Source of the DNA: Dermatophagoides farinae
Lineage: Eukaryota > Arthropoda > Arachnida > Sarcoptiformes > Pyroglyphidae
Direction of reading: 5' to 3'
DNA: 64,000 nucleotides
Assembly: GCF_024713945.1 (NCBI RefSeq)
Contig: NC_134686.1
Coordinates: 1,884,001-1,948,000, forward strand
Part shown: positions 3 to 63,835 of the stretch, piece after piece
How positions within the stretch are numbered: position 1 is the stretch's first letter
How the letters are laid out: every line of letters starts with the position of its first letter
Program-made: the position numbers and the translations under genes
The notes under the pieces: generated by a model
The model's input: the letters and a program-made list of their open reading frames with translations, nothing else
Databases searched by the model: none
What the model was told of the DNA's origin: nothing

Positions 3-697
3 TGTAAAGATTTTGGTATTAAAATCACATATCCAACATTATTGATCAATGGTAAATGTGGTAAATTGATTGATTTTTTTTTCATTTGAGAATTCTAATT
101 CTTTCATTTTTCATGTTTCTCAACAAATTTAAAAGAACCACCATCATCCGAAGTGGATATGAAATCTGATTCCGAAATGCTAACGGATGTTAATAATACA
201 AATTCATTAGATCTAAATGTACATCGTGATGAAGTATTACGTCTTGTATCGGATCTTCATGTAGTCATGTTTGCCAAACAATCGGAACAAGGATTATTAA
301 GGTATGAAAAAACAAACATGTTTTATTTGATCATTTTCAATCGATTTATTTATTTATTTATAGTCTGAAACAAAAATTTCCAAAAATTTTTGAAAATTTT
401 TGCCTCTATTCTGATGTTTGTCTACAAATGGAACGTAATGATTATAAAGCAACAGCTAGAAGATTTTTACATGAACTTTTTATGGAAACCAATGTTGATC
501 AGGTAATGGCATTTTTTTACATTACTGTTGTTGTTTTTTTTCTAACAAAATGATTGATGTTTATTTTTGAAAAACAAAAGTTTTATCAACATGCTGATGC
601 TATAATGAAAAAATATGAACATTTAAAACCGATTGAATTATCATCGTCATCATTATTATCATCATCATCGACAACAACAACAACAACAACAACATGA
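3..697 (+). CDS. 3' end of an unrecognised protein-coding gene (four exons, 5' partial)
   Basis: Joined exons 3-51, 136-301, 364-502 and 581-697 give one frame ending in TGA at 695-697; every junction is GT-AG and phase-consistent. The peptide runs from CKDFGIKITYPTLLIN through VHRDEVLRLVSDLHVVMFAK and KATARRFLHELFMETNVDQ to a tail of Ser and Thr runs. The amphipathic Leu/Phe spacing suggests an all-helical, possibly HEAT/ARM-like, C-terminus. The last 20 or so residues are Ser (TCA/TCG) then Thr (ACA) runs, so the C-terminus is written by a microsatellite. I do not recognise the family. The gene begins left of the window. An AATAAA lies near 855, so the 3' UTR is probably short. Confidence 0.72.
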
Positions 698-1154
698 ACA
701 ATCGCACACACACACACACACACATCACGCAACGTAATGCAAATATCAAACGCAATCAAGATTAATTTATTTCAAAAATTTTAATAGCAGAATGAAAAAG
801 ATCAAGAAAAATCATTGAATCATTTGTTAAGTTTTTTTTCAAATTTTTTTTCTGAATAAATTTTATTCTTTTCATATGAAAAAAAGTCCATTTATTTTTC
901 ATTCAAAAAATCTGAATTAGAAAAAAAATAGACACACCTGTTGTTGTTGTTTTTGTTGTTGTTGTTGATTGCATGACACAACTACATTTTTATTCAGGTG
1001 TGTTCATTAATTACGCATGCGTTCGTATTCGTTTACCTTGATGAATATTTTCTATTGGTATTTCGTGAGCTCACCAATCAATCAATCAATCATTCATTCA
1101 TTTATTTTTGTCCGTTGACACGAATTTGAAATAAATTCAACCAATCGTTCCATT
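698..1154. other. Intergenic: 3' UTR of left-edge gene and promoter of the next
   Basis: No coding frame seen. It holds a CA run (703-724), AATAAA signals near 855, a TTG run (about 940-967), a palindromic acgcatgcgt at about 1012-1021 and a tandem caat/catt tract (about 1077-1105). The next gene's ATG follows at 1155. Confidence 0.6.
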
Positions 1155-1936
1155 ATGGAATTATATATGGTTTGTGTATTGATGGCAATGTAAGTGTAAT
1201 TCGATGAGAATTAGTTTGTATTGAATTTCTGTTTTTTTCTGTTGAATTTTCACCAGTGCATTAGCCCTTGTCATCATAAAAGGTATACAATGTGTATTAT
1301 CATTGATGCATCCGATGCCAAGTGAAGCAGATATACGATGGCGACAAAATCCACGATTACCATTGGAACAGTATAAAAAACAGATAAAAATGGCTAATAA
1401 AACCACGAAATCCGTTAATAATGGTGCCAATAAAGAGATGAATAAAACAAAAGAACCGAAAGGAAAACGTTTACCACGTAATATACGTCTGGAAAGATTG
1501 TATGCCGGTTCACCAGCATCGTTTGAAAGTGAATTTATTGACACAAGTTTTAGTCGTCGTTCAGATTTTGATTCAAATTATAATCGATCACCACCACCAA
1601 GATCGGTTGATGATTATGTTATTCATACACATGTACATCCACATGCACATTCACAAAATCAGGTATGTATTAAAAAAATCGGATTCCAGTGTTAATTGAA
1701 TTTTTTTTCAAAAATAACAGACACTTTTAGAACAAATATCATTCGCCGAAGATGTGGATGTTGATGATGATCCTATTGAAGCATATGTTTTACAACAACA
1801 TCGAAAAATATTAAAATCAAGCCAAAATCGATCATCAACTCCTATACAACAGCAACAAAATTTGAATATAAATACACGACCATTGTCACAAGCGACAAGT
1901 CCATCGTATTCTAAAAGTCATGCAACGATTGTTTGA
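1155..1936 (+). CDS. Hypothetical small secreted or single-pass membrane protein, three exons
   Basis: Exons 1155-1189, 1257-1662 and 1721-1936 total 657 nt, or 218 residues plus TGA; junctions are gtaagt/ccag and gtatgt/acag. The start was chosen because this short first exon adds a hydrophobic N-terminus (MELYMVCVLMAIALALVIIK) that reads as a signal peptide or anchor. Next come a basic Lys/Arg-rich part (about residues 40-95), a His-rich patch (HTHVHPHAHS), an acidic stretch (EDVDVDDDP) and a Gln/Asn/Ser-rich tail. No Cys framework or domain is recognised. If the anchor stays, a short lumenal N-end and a long basic tail would result; if cleaved, the protein is secreted. Exon structure is well supported, function unknown. 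Confidence 0.75.
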
Positions 1937-4900
1937 AATGGATTTTTTATTTTCATTTTTACTTGAATTATTTTGTCATCATTTGTATATTTAACCAGAT
2001 TTTATACCAAACAAAAACAAAAAAAAAAGATTTTGAAAAATTTTTTATCATAATCGCAATTCAATGCGCCGGCCACAGATGGCGGCAGCAGCAGCGATTC
2101 GAATAAAACAAAAAAAGAGCAAAAATTCGAAGAATCTCGAAGAATCTCGTTTTTATTCATCTGAATCAAAATTTAGTATATTGTAATTCATTATATTCTG
2201 ATTAGTTAATGTATAGAATTTGAATCGGAATTTGATCATCATCATTATCATCATTGAATTTGAATTTCAAATGGAGCCAACCAGTGAAAACAAAAATCAA
2301 CTTGGATTTCATCTGAAAGTCATCAACAATTGACATTATCATGTGGAAAAAAAACGCACACACATCTGACGCCCGAAATATTCTATTATTTTCTCTTGAT
2401 TTCAGTTCTTTTTTTTCTATGTTTAAAGTCATTGTTTTTTGCCTTTTTGTGTGTGTGTGTGTGTGCGTTTTTTGGTTCATTTTCTAATCAATTTGAATTT
2501 GAACACACACACACACACTCAAAACAAATATTCCCATTATCAAGTAAGTGTGTGTGTTTGTTCGTTATCATATATCCAAAAAATACTAATAATGTGGTCC
2601 TTACAATGTAGAATATATTGATATTCTCAATTACAATTGACACACACACACACACTCAATTGTTAACATTATCAAAAAAAAAAAAAATGAAATTGAAAGC
2701 AACGATATGCTTTTTTATTCTCATTCATTCATCCTCAAAATGCCATTTCCAAATGCAAAAAAAAAAAAACAAAAAAAAATCGATTCATTCCATTATATTC
2801 TTGTGCCCTTTGCAAGTGAATGCTCGCTCGTGCACACACACATATTCAATGTTCCGTATGATTATGATGATGATCATCATCATGATCATTATAGTCGAAA
2901 AAAAAATTCCATACGAAATGGACAATTTCCAAAGTAAAAAAAAGGAAAAAAAATTCAGATTTTTTTTCCTTTTTTTTTGCATTTCCATTTTCATTTGAAT
3001 TCTTTTGCTTTTTTTGTTGTTGTTGTTGAATGGATTTGAGAATGATGATTGCTTTTATTACAATTCACAAGTGTGTGTAAGAGATATTTTCTCGCAAAAA
3101 AAAAAAAAATTTCAACGATTGTCAATTGTCTAGTTTATTTTTTTCCGGGGCAATTGAATTATAGTCTCTCTCTGTGTGTGTGTGTTTGTGAGTTTTGATC
3201 GAAAAAATTGCTGATTCATATTTTGATCGAAACGGATTTTGATTTATATATCCAACTAAATATGAATTCTTATTTGCGTCAAAAAAGAATCCAACGAATA
3301 TGATCCAATATGATGATGTTTAGAATTCAAACCATCAAGAATGTGTGTGTTTTTATCGATAAAATTAAGTTGTGATTTATGAACTGAATATGGCTTGTTG
3401 GTTGGTTAGTTAGTTGTCACTTTTCTGTTGTTGTTGTTGTTGTTGTTGTTGTTGCTGCTGTATAGCAATATGTTTTTTTTTCATATGGAATCGAAAGTTT
3501 GGTTCACTAACTTTTGTGAATGAATGAAATGAAATGAAAAAAAAAATTCTTTCAATCAATTTTGTTGTTGTTGTTGTTTGTATTTGTGTTTGTGAATAAA
3601 TAATAAAAAAAATTTTTCCATGCCTCCAAGGCTTTCAAAGGCCAAATAAATTCATTTCATTCCATTCATTTATTCATTCATTCAATACTAACACACAGAA
3701 TTTTTCTTGTTCATACAGAATTTGTTTGTTTTTGTTTTTTTTTTATTTTTTGTTTTTGTCATTTCCATATATTCTAATATTCTATATTCTGCTGTTCAGA
3801 TGAAATTATTAAGAAATGAATTTCAAAAATTTTTTTGTTTCTCTTGAAAAAAAATGCTTGCTTATGAATCTCAATTTGTTTCCACTTTTTCTTTTTTTAT
3901 TATTATTATTATTATTACTACTACTACTACTAACAACCGAATATGAACTTTTTGTTATTGTTTTGTTCGTCCATCCATCCACATCCATTTAATCTATCTC
4001 TTGAGTATATATTTCTTTCTACATATACGTATCTGGTTTAAATATATTCTTTAAGTAAATTTTTTTTTTGTTCTTTTGCTAACGATTCTGATGAAAATTG
4101 GTCCAAATGATATGTCTCTGTTTTCGTTTTCCCTGGGTGATTTATGGTTCCAAGGAGAGAGAGAGAAAACAAAAACAAAAACAAAAAACATAATGATGCA
4201 ATCAACAACAACAACAACAACAACAACAACAAGAAAAAAAGAATCCATTCCATATGAATAATAAACAAATATTTTGTGATGACACAATGATGGTGTAGAA
4301 TTATTTAAAAAAAAAATACATACAAAAATGTTTATCATCAGAATTTGAGAATTTTTTCATGTCCCAAAAAAAAATTCTGTTCACATTCTTTCATGTGAAT
4401 ATATTACATTCTTCAATGAAAAAAAAAATTTTATCCCAAAATAATTATCAACATCATTCATGTTTTGTAGTTGTATTTTTTTGCCCACCCCTCCATTTTC
4501 CAATTACAATACTACATCAAGAGAGAGTGGGTGGGTGTGAGTTTATTCCATATTTTTTCTTGTTATTCTGGTTCAAATATATAAAATGGTTTCCTATTCC
4601 TAAAATAAAGATAATTGAATTCTTTTCCTTTTTTGTTTTTGTTTCGTTCACCATTATCCGATTATTTTTTTTTCTCATTTCATATTGATAAGCATTAATA
4701 TTCAATCTACACACACACACACACACATAGGCCGCCAACGAAACAAATTCAATGATGATGATGATGATGATGTTTGTTTCATTCGCAAACAAAACAAAAA
4801 AAATTTAATTATTTCATTTGTATTTTGTGCAATAATAAAATAATGATGATGATGATGATGAACAATAGTGTGTATTTCTGCTGTTGTTGTTGTTGTTGTT

Positions 4901-59527: not shown

Positions 59528-59532
59528 GATTC
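59528..59532. repeat. Target-site duplication, left copy (gattc)
   Basis: Five bases immediately before the 5' LTR repeat exactly after the 3' LTR (63831-63835). Five-bp duplications are typical of Ty1/copia integration. Confidence 0.93.
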
Positions 59533-59775
59533 TGTTAGAGAAAACGATAGACGATGTCTCATGTTTGAACTATGTCTTCTAACATCTTTGATTGAACCCT
59601 AATCATTTTAGATTGAACATGCTTATAAAAGCAGATGTACATAGTGACACATACACTCTCATTCGTTACACACATCTCTGGCTACACATTATTATTATTA
59701 TTATGATATTTACATTGTTTCTTTTATCCACATCCATCTTTTCTTGTTCTGTTTAATAAACTAAAATCTCAAACA
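59533..59775 (+). repeat. 5' LTR (243 bp)
   Basis: Starts TG, ends CA. A TATAAAA box at 59634-59640 and AATAAA at 59755-59760 give the U3-R-U5 layout, with transcription probably starting near 59665. Matches the copy at 63588-63830 base for base as far as I can read. Confidence 0.95.
59634..59640 (+). promoter_or_regulatory. TATA box of the 5' LTR promoter
   Basis: TATAAAA in gcttataaaagcag, about 100 bp into the LTR. The same motif in the 3' LTR (63679-63685) could drive outward transcription into the right flank. Confidence 0.65.
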
Positions 59776-59787
59776 GGTTATGGGTCC
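59776..59787 (+). other. Primer-binding site for an initiator tRNA-Met fragment
   Basis: ggttatgggtcc abuts the 5' LTR. The complement matches the anticodon-loop region of eukaryotic initiator tRNA-Met (GGGCCCAUAACC), with one T that pairs as G-U. Copia of Drosophila is known to prime from this internal half-tRNA rather than the tRNA 3' end. Confidence 0.75.
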
Positions 59788-59880
59788 ACATGCTTAACGC
59801 TGTGATATATCCAGATTTATTTTATCTTTGTGATATCAATTTTGAATTTCATCATTTTTAAAATCTGCGATATATGAAAA

Positions 59881-62800
59881 ATGGATTTGTGCTTAAGAAA
59901 GAAAGCCAAACGTTTTGCTCAATCATCATCATCCCGCATCACCAATACTTCATCAATGAAGAATCAATCTAATGGTACATCGATGGTGTTTGCGAAGAAG
60001 ACAAAAGTCTTAAGCCCGAAAAGGCGTTTTCAACATGTTCGTCAAATCGTAAATCGATTCGTAAATTGCAAAAGCGGCATGAACGACGAACAACAACGGT
60101 ACGATGATGAAAAGAAACTAAAAGACCGAAAAGTTTCTCTGATTGCAGCAGTGTCAACGATTGAGTCAGCTGATCTGTCAACACCACCAACGCCAAAATT
60201 TTACGCTGGATATGGTACAAGTAATCACATTGTGAACGACCAAAATCTATTGATTAATCAGCGTCGTACTGAACAATCAATTCAATCAATGAATGGATCT
60301 GTTCGCAATACCATCATCGGCGATCTTCCTTGTGAAGTTTTCAATGGCAAACAGTGGATCAAAAGTGTAATTAGCGATGTATTGTTCATCCCAGATCAAC
60401 CATTTAATGTCATTTCAATCGGTCAACTTTGCCGCGAGAAGGGTTTTAATGGCGAAACTGATAGTGAAGGCATGATCCTTTACCGCCATGATCAACCAAT
60501 GATGATAGCCGATTGGAGCGATCAATATGTCAACATGTTTGAGCTTCGTTTACGTGTCGAGCAAAATACAGCGCCACAAACAATTGCTTCTAATCAAAAC
60601 GAATACGTTTCAAAACAAATGTGTGCTGCTGAATCATCACCAGATACCATCACCTCAACTATTGAATCAGAGGTTGATGAAGTTGGCCGCAATATCGTCG
60701 ATGAATCTATTGTTTCTTGTTTACCTGGTATTTCCAGAAGGGTTGCTGATGATCAACAGCTTCCAAACCGACATATTGGCATCAATGAATCAAATTTTAA
60801 CGGTGATACGACACAATTTCCATCCGAAAAGATGATGAACATCGGCGTAAACAACAAAATTCCCTTCTTTGGTTTTAAACGAATCGTGAATGAACATTAC
60901 GTTCTTACCGGCAACAATGATATTTTATCCTGGACATGTGTTTCCAGAGAAGCCGAGATTTTATTGAAAAATATTGGATCATTTCCTATTGATGTTTTTA
61001 AATCATCGTTTTCAAATCGTGGTATTTTTAATGAAATCGGCCATATTATCGATCCGCCACGTAATTTTTATGATTTCAATTATCATTATTTCAACATGCA
61101 GCATATGGCTCATAGTGTCATGGCCTACCATCAGTCTGGTTCGAAACGAACTGAATCTGATGATGTTTATCGAATCAACGATTTGCCTTTATTGATTAAA
61201 TCGGATGAAATTTTGTACAATTGTCAGATGAAGATGTACCGTATTGGCTATGATATTCCCGATCTCAAATTTTATCGTATTTTCACCAATATTGAATCGG
61301 ATGACCATTCTCTTATGAATTATCAGCCTATTTTCAAATGTTTAATTCCTGACAAATATCCCGATTTGAATCGTTTATCAATTTTTAACAAAAGTGAATT
61401 GAATATTTTTCATTTTGTCAATCGTCAGATGTTTTTCGATCCTGTTCCTGATGAATTTTCTGTTTTCAATCATTCACTTTGGTATCATCTGATTCGAAGC
61501 TCTTTTGTTGGGCACATTATTTATGAATATTATTTTGGCCAACACTCGATATTTTCTGGCTTTATTGTCATCATATTTTATACCCCCAAAATACCTCAAA
61601 ATTTGATTTTCATTTCTTATTTTTGCCAATTATCTGGCCAAACGATAAATGGTACGGGGATGACGCTGCATCGACACGATAAGCCGAATTATTTGCTGAC
61701 TGATCACGTTGTTAAATCATTGAAAATTTTTATCGATCATGTCACAGCTGATTTTATTGATATTGGTTCACTTGCTCTTTATTGTATGAGCAAACGTTTT
61801 AATTTACCCCAACAGGAACCATATCGTAAGTTTTTACCTGAAACAATTTCTTGTCTCGTTACAGACGACGTCAATGGACGATCATTTCATGGAAATTTAT
61901 TTCTGGTCGCAATTTTTGATTATTCTGTTTTTATGGAAAATCCATCTATTTTATCGTATGATTTTGAACGTATCGTAAATGCCTCCGTAGTCGATACCGA
62001 CTATGATGTTTCATCTATCCGGACAGACCATCGATCTGTGATATTTGCCAAGGATGCTGTTTTGTGTCTGGCACGGCATGGCATAAAATCTGGTTTTATT
62101 TCTTCTGAATTGCCATTGCAACATGGTCTTGTGGATTTATTGATACGAAAAATTGCGAGCCAACCAATATTATTATTCTCGTCAAAATTGTTTGCTCTTC
62201 ATGGTATAACAATCAACAATCATATGATCATTTCAAATTATTATTTTTCTATCGAGCAAAATTTTGGACGACGAATTTATTTAACGAATTTCCGTATTTT
62301 CACATTTATTGAATATTCCACGAACAATCGTGATGAAAACATTGTTAAATCAGTGAAAATCAAGTTTCTAATGATCGGATATTTTATCGAAAATTATTTA
62401 TGTTATCGTTATTATCGACGCATTGAGCTATCCGATCCTATCACTATTTATGAAAAAGTCTCATGGAAGTCGTCACATCAATCGTATTTAAAGAAATTTA
62501 CCGATTTTACAGCTATCAATGCTCTTTATCGTTTTAAGGTAAATATTCTCGAAATCAATGTCGATAATGGTGGAAGAAACAACGTAAAGATTATCACCAT
62601 CGATTCCGGTGGAAACGTTTTGAATTTTCTCGACACAAATTGTGGTGGAAGCAGCATATCTTTAATTTCCGAAAAGTTTTCTGGTACTGGCAATTTGATC
62701 ATTGCTCAAATTATTTATGAACAGTCTTATAGACGTTTACCAGCAGCTGCTAAGTTTTTCCGTAGACAAAACGACATATTTTTAGCATCATTTGAAAGAA

Positions 62801-63657
62801 GTCTACTGACCACCGATCATGTATTGTCAAATTATTCACCATTACTATTCGACATAGCTGGTAAAATCGCAAAACCAAGATTGGTTGACCCACCACCAAA
62901 TGAAATTATTGTATCACGTAAACGGGTTAACTTGAAGATTCGATTGTATCGAACCATACGATTTGATGATTTGATCATATCTCAAATTTTTAAATTAATT
63001 ATCGTTTTTATCGTCTTTAATTATTTCGTAAAATATTTATTTGATCCTTTAGACGAAACCTTTTATTGGTTGAATTTAACCTACGAAGTAGATTTACGTT
63101 TGTATTTAGTTTCATTTGATCATATCGTATCTGTCCTACAAACAATGAACAAACCAAAATGGTACAATTTTATCTCTTATTTGGACGTATTGATCAATTT
63201 CTACAAATCTACTTCGATTGGACGAAACCGATTACAAAATAACTTGGATTTTGAAAATATCCGTATTAAGTTATATTTATTGTTCATCAAGCGATTGATT
63301 TTCGCACGCATCGTTTTACTCGCTCATTTTCTGCTCAACACATTGGTCAATATCAAAACGGTAAAACGATTATATCGATATTTTGATTGGATTTCAATTG
63401 AACTTCTGGATTTATTATCGATGGATTACTTGGTATCATTGAAGCCCATTTCCATGGCATTTAAATTATTGGTCCTTTCATTTGTGGACATATTCATTCA
63501 TCATATCCATCGTTACAACATTCAATTTGTTTTTGATCACATCTTTATTTCCAGGAGCTGCATGACCATTCGTCAATCGGGTGGAAGTGTTAGAGAAAAC
63601 GATAGACGATGTCTCATGTTTGAACTATGTCTTCTAACATCTTTGATTGAACCCTAA
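59881..63657 (+). CDS. Degenerate copia-type Gag-Pol-like polyprotein, long open frame
   Basis: 1258 codons without a stop; an in-frame TGA sits just before the ATG. A protease-like segment begins only about 106 residues in, so a capsid/UBN2 region and a CCHC knuckle are missing. The protease D-S/T-G site is replaced (AGYGTSNH, 109-116), while the downstream part (DVLFIPDQPFNVISIGQLC, 166-184) is family-like. A similar tail recurs at 581-602 (RHDKP against RHDQP at 202-206). An integrase-like core follows: TDDVNG (661-666), FDYSVF (679-684), IRTDHRS (713-719) and QHGLVD (747-752), fitting D663, D716 and D752 with exactly 35 residues between the last two, D replacing the usual E. A second integrase-like trace starts at IDSGGN (907-912). 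RT is reduced to YLDV (1100-1103) for YVDD, and KRLYRY (1162-1167) recalls the RNase H leader. The last 23 codons lie inside the 3' LTR. Alignments are by eye. Confidence 0.7.
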   Translation: MDLCLRKKAKRFAQSSSSRITNTSSMKNQSNGTSMVFAKKTKVLSPKRRFQHVRQIVNRFVNCKSGMNDEQQRYDDEKKLKDRKVSLIAAVSTIESADLSTPPTPKFYAGYGTSNHIVNDQNLLINQRRTEQSIQSMNGSVRNTIIGDLPCEVFNGKQWIKSVISDVLFIPDQPFNVISIGQLCREKGFNGETDSEGMILYRHDQPMMIADWSDQYVNMFELRLRVEQNTAPQTIASNQNEYVSKQMCAAESSPDTITSTIESEVDEVGRNIVDESIVSCLPGISRRVADDQQLPNRHIGINESNFNGDTTQFPSEKMMNIGVNNKIPFFGFKRIVNEHYVLTGNNDILSWTCVSREAEILLKNIGSFPIDVFKSSFSNRGIFNEIGHIIDPPRNFYDFNYHYFNMQHMAHSVMAYHQSGSKRTESDDVYRINDLPLLIKSDEILYNCQMKMYRIGYDIPDLKFYRIFTNIESDDHSLMNYQPIFKCLIPDKYPDLNRLSIFNKSELNIFHFVNRQMFFDPVPDEFSVFNHSLWYHLIRSSFVGHIIYEYYFGQHSIFSGFIVIIFYTPKIPQNLIFISYFCQLSGQTINGTGMTLHRHDKPNYLLTDHVVKSLKIFIDHVTADFIDIGSLALYCMSKRFNLPQQEPYRKFLPETISCLVTDDVNGRSFHGNLFLVAIFDYSVFMENPSILSYDFERIVNASVVDTDYDVSSIRTDHRSVIFAKDAVLCLARHGIKSGFISSELPLQHGLVDLLIRKIASQPILLFSSKLFALHGITINNHMIISNYYFSIEQNFGRRIYLTNFRIFTFIEYSTNNRDENIVKSVKIKFLMIGYFIENYLCYRYYRRIELSDPITIYEKVSWKSSHQSYLKKFTDFTAINALYRFKVNILEINVDNGGRNNVKIITIDSGGNVLNFLDTNCGGSSISLISEKFSGTGNLIIAQIIYEQSYRRLPAAAKFFRRQNDIFLASFERSLLTTDHVLSNYSPLLFDIAGKIAKPRLVDPPPNEIIVSRKRVNLKIRLYRTIRFDDLIISQIFKLIIVFIVFNYFVKYLFDPLDETFYWLNLTYEVDLRLYLVSFDHIVSVLQTMNKPKWYNFISYLDVLINFYKSTSIGRNRLQNNLDFENIRIKLYLLFIKRLIFARIVLLAHFLLNTLVNIKTVKRLYRYFDWISIELLDLLSMDYLVSLKPISMAFKLLVLSFVDIFIHHIHRYNIQFVFDHIFISRSCMTIRQSGGSVRENDRRCLMFELCLLTSLIEP
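63579..63587 (+). other. Polypurine tract before the 3' LTR
   Basis: gggtggaag directly precedes the TG of the 3' LTR, in the position where plus-strand DNA synthesis is primed. It is short, with one T interruption. Confidence 0.7.
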
Positions 63658-63830
63658 TCATTTTAGATTGAACATGCTTATAAAAGCAGATGTACATAGT
63701 GACACATACACTCTCATTCGTTACACACATCTCTGGCTACACATTATTATTATTATTATGATATTTACATTGTTTCTTTTATCCACATCCATCTTTTCTT
63801 GTTCTGTTTAATAAACTAAAATCTCAAACA
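63588..63830 (+). repeat. 3' LTR (243 bp)
   Basis: Same sequence and length as the 5' LTR, with TATAAAA at 63679-63685 and AATAAA at 63810-63815, the latter serving as the likely polyadenylation signal. The polyprotein stop codon (63655-63657) falls 70 bp inside it. Confidence 0.95.
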
Positions 63831-63835
63831 GATTC
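63831..63835. repeat. Target-site duplication, right copy (gattc)
   Basis: Exact match to 59528-59532. The remaining 165 bases of the window are AT- and TTG-rich with nothing recognised. Confidence 0.93.

Follow-up and report, generated by a model that had tools for sequence, protein, structure and literature searches.

The stretch of Dermatophagoides farinae DNA analysed here (64,000 nucleotides, positions 1,884,001 to 1,948,000 of contig NC_134686.1; hereafter the window) carries at 59533-63830 a copia-type long terminal repeat (LTR) element, the whole of which can be read in the sequence. Its pair of LTRs with TG..CA ends, 5-bp target-site duplication (TSD), primer binding site (PBS) and polypurine tract (PPT) are the structural features of Ty1/copia retrotransposons. 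The two LTRs are identical at 243/243 positions and the duplication GATTC is intact, and the recent movement that the initial annotation had read from these ends stands. A TATA-like TTATAAAAG is present at LTR nt 91 and an AATAAA at LTR nt 223. The frame that had been described as open for 1258 codons is indeed so (59881-63657); it crosses the PPT plus 70 nt of the 3' LTR, and the remaining two forward frames across the same interval contain 71 and 100 stops. This coding frame separates the element from the LARD and TRIM classes, which have none. An antisense captured host gene was considered and rejected, the sole minus-strand open reading frame (ORF) of at least 60 amino acids in the element being one of 83 amino acids.

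The frame was compared with 12 copia loci from this genome, nine of which have frames of at least 1237 codons. Among the 12 is L044, in which the Pfam domains follow the order gag, Pol_BBD, gag_pre-integrs, rve, SH3 and RVT_2. The features of the element, with the segments of the frame that align to these loci, are as follows.

59528-59532, no strand: 5' TSD GATTC, read directly and the same as 63831-63835
59533-59775, + strand: 5' LTR, 243 bp, TG..CA, 100% identical (243/243) to 63588-63830
59776-59787, + strand: PBS GGTTATGGGTCC, directly adjoining the 5' LTR, presumably of half-tRNA-iMet type
59881-63657, + strand: open frame of 1258 codons, with its ATG at 59881 and its stop (63655-63657) inside the 3' LTR
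59881-60195, + strand: basic stretch, residues 1-105, resembling the copia pre-protease region (nucleocapsid tail); aligned to L050 and L047
60196-60585, + strand: protease beta-barrel (Pol_BBD, PF22936), residues 106-235; 61/123 residues identical to L044
60874-61065, + strand: first integrase-like copy, partial, residues 332-395, matching L044 532-585 (E 0.003; hhalign probability only 14.9%)
61444-61686, + strand: second protease-barrel copy, degenerate, residues 522-602, matching L044 300-383 (E 5e-4; tblastn E 5e-6)
61867-62460, + strand: eroded integrase core and C-terminal part, residues 663-860, matching L044 491-707 (E 1.6e-20; hhalign 97.7%)
62959-63387, + strand: putative remnant of the reverse transcriptase (RT) end and RNase H start, residues 1027-1169; weak, collinear alignment
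63579-63587, + strand: PPT GGGTGGAAG, directly before the 3' LTR
63588-63830, + strand: 3' LTR, with TGT TAG at 63588-63593 out of phase with the frame
63831-63835, no strand: 3' TSD GATTC, read directly

Judged from these alignments, the frame reads as a copia pol that is rearranged and eroded, with its protease and integrase segments partly doubled. A Pfam search at E<=1 on five overlapping pieces of the frame (HMMER filters remove most matches above about 0.1) returned a single domain, PF22936 Pol_BBD, at residues 111-189 (E 1.5e-9), and no gag, rve or RVT_2. Neither a CCHC knuckle nor a [YF]xDD motif is present in the 1258 codons. The site of the catalytic Asp of the protease is Gly110: the expected D-x-G reads GYG in 4/4 copies of the element, and the Asp is kept in 10/10 other copia loci aligned at this position. 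The gag capsid with CCHC, the protease Asp, the RT YxDD and the complete integrase D,D,E that characterize autonomous Ty1/copia elements are all missing; in the integrase, two Asp align and the position of the catalytic Glu is aligned with an Asp. The initial annotation had described a catalytically eroded frame with no capsid, no protease Asp and no YVDD. This description was borne out, the profile searches having found neither RT nor integrase intact, with the addition that weak integrase and RT/RNase H remnants persist.

The basic residues 1-105 contain neither CCHC knuckle nor capsid, and residues 86-283 match 272-466 of L044 (E 2e-43; hhalign 99.8%). As protease and integrase segments of L044 are matched two times, part of the protease-integrase stretch is doubled; the hhalign probability of the second barrel copy is only 7.6-9.8%, and within the frame itself residues 537-606 match residues 140-210 (E 0.014). 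The Ty1/copia order of protease, integrase and RT/RNase H is found with this partial duplication and with a weak RT/RNase H part: the alignment of the latter terminates at residue 1167-1169 in six of seven autonomous frames, in which its score is reached by 1 to 38 of 200 shuffles, while the seventh, L054, gives no RT/RNase H signal (186 of 200 shuffles reach the score). The YVDD stretch falls into an in-frame gap of the alignment against L055. Since weak collinear remnants of integrase and RT/RNase H are present, pol is to be called eroded rather than absent. A novel fused gene was ruled out by collinear alignment with pol for residues 663-860 and, more weakly, for 1027-1169; pol residue in another frame was likewise rejected, because pieces of nine copia frames searched by tblastn on the window copy match frame 1 only (E<=0.05). 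Profile searches against PDB gave no match for residues 501-870 and one chance-level match each for residues 1-270 and 841-1235, and amino-acid composition was not discriminating as a test of drift.

Identity to L044 in the barrel is 50%, compared with 32-50% in five autonomous families. The corresponding values are 41% versus 52-62% for the integrase core, 35% versus 45-60% for the integrase C-terminal part, 39% over only 36 residues versus 56-62% over 167-173 residues for RT, 31% versus 49-63% for the RT end to RNase H start, and 26% over 19 residues versus 45-52% for the rest of RNase H. The order of conservation is reversed: RT is more conserved than the barrel in the autonomous families, whereas the barrel is more conserved than RT in this element. 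By this comparison, the protease barrel appears conserved at the level of autonomous copia, the integrase eroded, and RT and RNase H barely recognisable.

Searches of the genome (62.4 Mb, 22 contigs) using the LTR, the internal region and a second LTR type as queries yielded at least four copies, these counts being lower bounds: the window copy and three further ones at C4:2065156-2069088, C8:1272165-1276496 (minus strand) and C3:2573682-2578088, referred to below by their contigs. Within each copy the LTRs are identical (243 bp in the window, 243 bp in C4, 260 bp in C8 and 293 bp in C3), the 5-bp TSDs are intact in 4/4 copies, and no solo LTR was found among the matches listed. Five matches of this genome to the group-7 allergen family of mites agree with a mite origin. 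The frame has 1258 codons in the window copy, 1258 in C8 and 1243 in C3, and is broken in C4. The internal regions of the open copies are 2-3% apart and the LTRs about 14% apart, the window and C4 having one type and C8 and C3 the other. The first ~100 bp of the two types are nearly the same and nearly all of the divergence lies in the 3' part (nt 100-243); the 3' half of the LTR looks either swapped or very fast evolving. Because the LTRs are about 14% apart but the internal regions only 2-3%, the copies are mosaics, and the suggestion of a recent recombinant was to this extent, and only partly, right. The identity of the LTR pairs implies that the differences between copies probably predate the present insertions and arose in replicating lineages.

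Substitutions were tallied in the three open copies over 1240 shared codons, using the majority state at each site and the observed mutation spectrum. The 130 substitutions comprise 93 replacements, 37 synonymous changes and no stop, against a neutral expectation of 88.8, 34.2 and 7.0, respectively, and the share of simulations without any stop was 0.0004 of 5000. Five mutation models based on the per-site majority state gave a no-stop chance of 0.0006-0.008 and a ratio of replacement to synonymous rates (omega, or dN/dS) of 0.72-1.02. Pairwise comparison of the real copies, without a majority state, gave omega of 0.79-1.27 and a no-stop chance of 0.003-0.032, the pairs not being independent; in the window/C3 pair, a single codon that differs at two positions would have a stop as its intermediate if one of the changes is taken alone, and the codons actually present are sense. 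Nei-Gojobori omega for the three pairs of open copies is 0.69 (Fisher p 0.14), 0.54 (p 0.006) and 0.89 (p 0.67). Moreover, 4/4 indels among the open copies in the internal frame are multiples of 3, compared with 1/9 in the LTR and 5' untranslated region (UTR). The absence of stops where 7.0 are expected, together with these in-phase indels, supports the initial view that the openness is not random. Of the picture named there as contrary to a retained frame, a single copy with dN/dS near 1, only one half was found: dN/dS is high, but the element is not single.

Eight copia control pairs were available (three close, three more distant and two saturated). Nei-Gojobori omega for the close pairs (dS 0.012-0.039) is 0.029 for L044/L045 (27 synonymous and three replacement changes), 0.185 for L047/L048 and 0.237 for L044/L046, L046 being a 917-codon fragment; for the three more distant pairs it is 0.111-0.341. 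Corrected for the mutation spectrum, the values for L044/L045 and L047/L048 are 0.043 and 0.24. Within the frame of the present family, residues 1-235 have nine replacements against an expected 17.0 (p 0.017 when measured as a fraction of all replacements, and p 0.26 when only the ratio to synonymous changes is used), and residues 236-1242 have 84 against 71.8, together with 31 synonymous changes versus 27.9 and 0 stops versus 5.4. Protein-level constraint seems clearer only in the first ~235 residues and is supported mainly there. As the downstream ~1000 codons combine near-neutral replacements with a lack of stops and frameshifts, selection on openness fits them better than a conserved packaging protein. 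The earlier proposal that the frame is kept for another role can thus be retained mainly for residues ~1-235, and the structural or packaging protein that it offered as an example is disfavoured for the remaining ~1000 codons.

The 3' end of the frame bears on the same question. The frame stops at LTR nt 4-6 (TGT TAA or TGT TGA, allowing for repeat boundaries set 2-3 nt early in two loci) in L044/L045, L047/L048 and L049, the loci nearest by protease, and in L050; in L052, L053, L054 and L055 it stops 6-120 nt upstream of the LTR. In the present element the phase of the LTR's own TGT TAG has stops at 63384, 63399, 63462 and 63534. Somewhere from about 63387 to the LTR the element seems to have departed from the presumed ancestral phase without meeting a stop, and its frame, off that phase, stays open for 22 codons into the LTR. 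An end that is out of phase but open is hard to square with a conserved protein end and is natural if openness alone matters.

The broken copy C4 (L009) has 24 private deletions (371 bp in all, 7/24 multiples of 3; window-equivalent 60043-62984), many of whose junctions have altered bases. Five of its six in-frame stops adjoin deletions, and one stop occurs among ten private in-frame changes away from deletions. Its private substitutions lie within 10 nt of a deletion in 53/65 cases; elsewhere there are 12 in 2980 compared sites, versus 17-32 in the other copies. The identical LTRs and intact TSD indicate that C4 inserted recently. Many deletions combined with few other changes suggest that C4 was broken in a single faulty round of reverse transcription, in which case its template could still be thought of as open; alternatively, its RNA may already have been broken when mobilised.

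Thirteen further loci, picked mostly by frame length among the Pol_BBD matches, were examined, and four of them (L050, L056, L059 and L061) derive by deletion from other copia families and retain an LTR pair. L050, L056 and L059 are young (LTR pairs 99-100% identical), 2.65-3.2 kb long and open to the 3' LTR, with 4/5 deletion joins in phase; in L059 the second join, close to where the parent ends, breaks the phase, and the frame nonetheless runs open to the LTR. L057, L058, L062 and L064 were set aside because they lack a full LTR pair (the paired pieces of L064 being only 36-38 bp), and L046 and L051 were dropped because their flanking direct repeats are 0.9-1 kb. The latter two are copia fragments; the repeats flanking them are 93% and 98% alike, the two kinds of repeat do not match each other, and both fragments are possibly nested inside other elements. 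Nine Pol_BBD matches with stops were considered as counterexamples; of these nine, L060 and L065 were fetched and dropped, a direct LTR pair being seen in neither. In L060 (G000:C3:883900-887400, about 222-2376), inverted stretches of ~235 bp, 89% alike, surround decayed copia gag-protease remains, and this locus, as also L065, looks like a DNA-type element having captured copia sequence. Among ten copia loci compared, nine have GGTTATGGG at the PBS position; the other, the copia-type L054 (G000:C3:232000-238000), has the unlike TGTGGTAGCAGAGC in its primer-site region.

The explanation that we favour, at a probability of roughly 0.45, is a non-autonomous copia-type LTR family that is mobilised in trans and whose RNA is under selection to remain readable by ribosomes nearly to its 3' end. 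Such a family would keep its LTRs, PBS and PPT and a frame that ribosomes could traverse into the 3' LTR, with the TATA-like and AATAAA motifs leaving about 170 nt of 3' UTR. The first ~235 residues, consisting of the basic nucleocapsid-like tail and the Asp-less barrel, may enter or manipulate helper particles, and the following ~1000 codons, a wreck of partly doubled protease and integrase, RT and RNase H, would be constrained mainly to be stop-free. With a stop in the frame, the 3' UTR would lengthen to kilobases and nonsense-mediated decay (NMD) could attack the RNA, or less of it would reach helper particles for some other reason; only RNAs without stops would then be copied. More tentative still is the sharper proposition that what selection preserves is the openness of the ~1000-codon frame rather than the amino acids it encodes, the frame being an RNA-protecting decoy (for example, against NMD) and a helper supplying all enzymes. 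Long 3' UTRs expose retroviral RNA to NMD, and Rous sarcoma virus has a counter-element (PMC2925335). Yeast Ty1 requires Upf factors for later steps (PMC3522557), so that the connection of NMD with retrotransposons can act in either direction.

Our confidence stays below even odds because no more than three open copies underlie the evidence, which is of a statistical kind, and several observations weigh against this explanation. C4 is young yet broken: either its last round of copying damaged it or it was already defective when mobilised. With C4 counted, the chance of at least three of four copies being without substitution stops is 0.015. Two more young elements are broken and limit confidence further: L061 (G000:C3:1845700-1849500, 153-3105) has identical 104-bp LTRs, the TSD AAATA and a frame in fragments of 482, 154 and 250 codons, and L063 is full length with one LTR difference in 140. 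No autonomous partner with a shared LTR was found among the matches listed for the two LTR types, which contain only the four copies of the element; in an LTR comparison with ten loci, only L055 rose weakly above the shuffled level (with 4 and 3 of 100 shuffles attaining its score), and the other nine did not. A 7-nt LTR indel in the LTR extension of the frame displaces the end of the C3 frame, and omega of residues 1-235 is 0.37-0.47 in the pairs with the window copy, but 0.95-1.00 in C8/C3. Furthermore, an Arabidopsis LTR element without long ORFs has transposed (PMC8704663). The young broken elements and the small number of copies are what one would expect of an ordinary decaying family whose source died recently, with three copies stop-free by chance and the erosion resulting from fast evolution and a few in-frame rearrangements, and the chance of 0.015 is not negligible once the case was chosen. 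However, 1258 codons are open although RT similarity is nearly all lost, and the absence of stops (p 0.0006-0.008) coincides with the in-phase indels of the internal frame; we consider such a decay quite improbable.

The replacements are also milder than neutral (mean BLOSUM62 -0.065 vs -0.403, p 0.023), and dN is lower than dS in the window/C3 pair (Fisher p 0.006), with p 0.14 and 0.67 in the other two pairs; protein constraint may therefore extend downstream of residue 235. These two observations, like the deficit of replacements in residues 1-235 and the autonomous-level identity of the barrel, would fit a whole protein that is functional (structural, RNA-binding, or a dominant-negative partner of the helper protease) and fast-evolving, its openness being a consequence. 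Retropepsins work as dimers, and the D-to-G chain could pair with the protease chain of a helper. On the other side, replacements are at the neutral level over residues 236-1242, no Pfam match lies downstream, the PDB profile searches, which downstream covered residues 501-870 and 841-1235, gave no match for the former and one at chance level for the latter, and at its end the frame is no longer in the presumed ancestral phase. A functional whole protein is accordingly judged rather unlikely. The same sequence pattern is predicted by a cis-acting need of the RNA for translation other than escape from NMD, such as translation-coupled packaging. This too we hold to be quite improbable, as barley BARE-2, reportedly the subject of a 2007 title by Tanskanen containing 'Life without GAG' and 'a parasite's parasite', is said to be packaged although its gag is not translated.

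The usual view of non-autonomous LTR elements is that they either code for nothing or retain a functional gag. The present family shares with L044/L045, L047/L048 and L049 of the same genome the TG..CA-type LTRs, the GGTTATGGG PBS, the PPT and a single long frame, and the barrels of L047, L049 and this element are 46-50% identical to that of L044. Nevertheless, the autonomous copia elements have CCHC, protease Asp and YVDD, and omega of 0.03-0.24 in close pairs, none of which holds for this family, which differs from them also in its partial internal duplication and in LTRs without clear similarity to theirs. Like BARE-2, it is Gag-deficient and may be a parasite of an autonomous copia element; BARE-2, however, reportedly still codes for everything else and has LTRs in common with its helper, whereas pol is eroded here and no LTR-sharing helper, nor an LTR similar to that of an autonomous element of the genome, was found among the matches listed. 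Athila of Arabidopsis is likewise non-autonomous with conserved intact frames, for which purifying selection is reported, the ten intact elements keeping the Gag residues (PMC2410132); the present family is without gag and has near-neutral replacements. TR-GAG elements are non-autonomous LTR elements with one frame encoding GAG (PMC8704663); this element also has one frame, but gag, intact or otherwise, is absent from it. Non-autonomous LTR elements with intact frames are therefore already known, but under protein selection or with gag. Among the titles and abstract starts listed in searches on NMD, intact frames, TR-GAG, BARE-2 and trans-mobilisation, none described a retrotransposon frame kept for openness only, and no paper bringing mites, Dermatophagoides, copia and LTR retrotransposons into one work was found.

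Coronavirus defective-interfering RNAs are said to maintain an open frame and to require translation irrespective of sequence; those are RNA-virus replicons with a known helper, whereas the family described here is a genomic retrotransposon for which the mechanism is conjectural. If the proposition of selection on openness alone is true, the family would be the retrotransposon counterpart of such RNAs, needing translation but free in what it encodes. Amino acids drifting near neutrally while stops are purged would make translation itself a replication requirement for retrotransposon RNA, and the resulting signature of neutral replacements, no stops and in-phase indels would be searchable in any genome.

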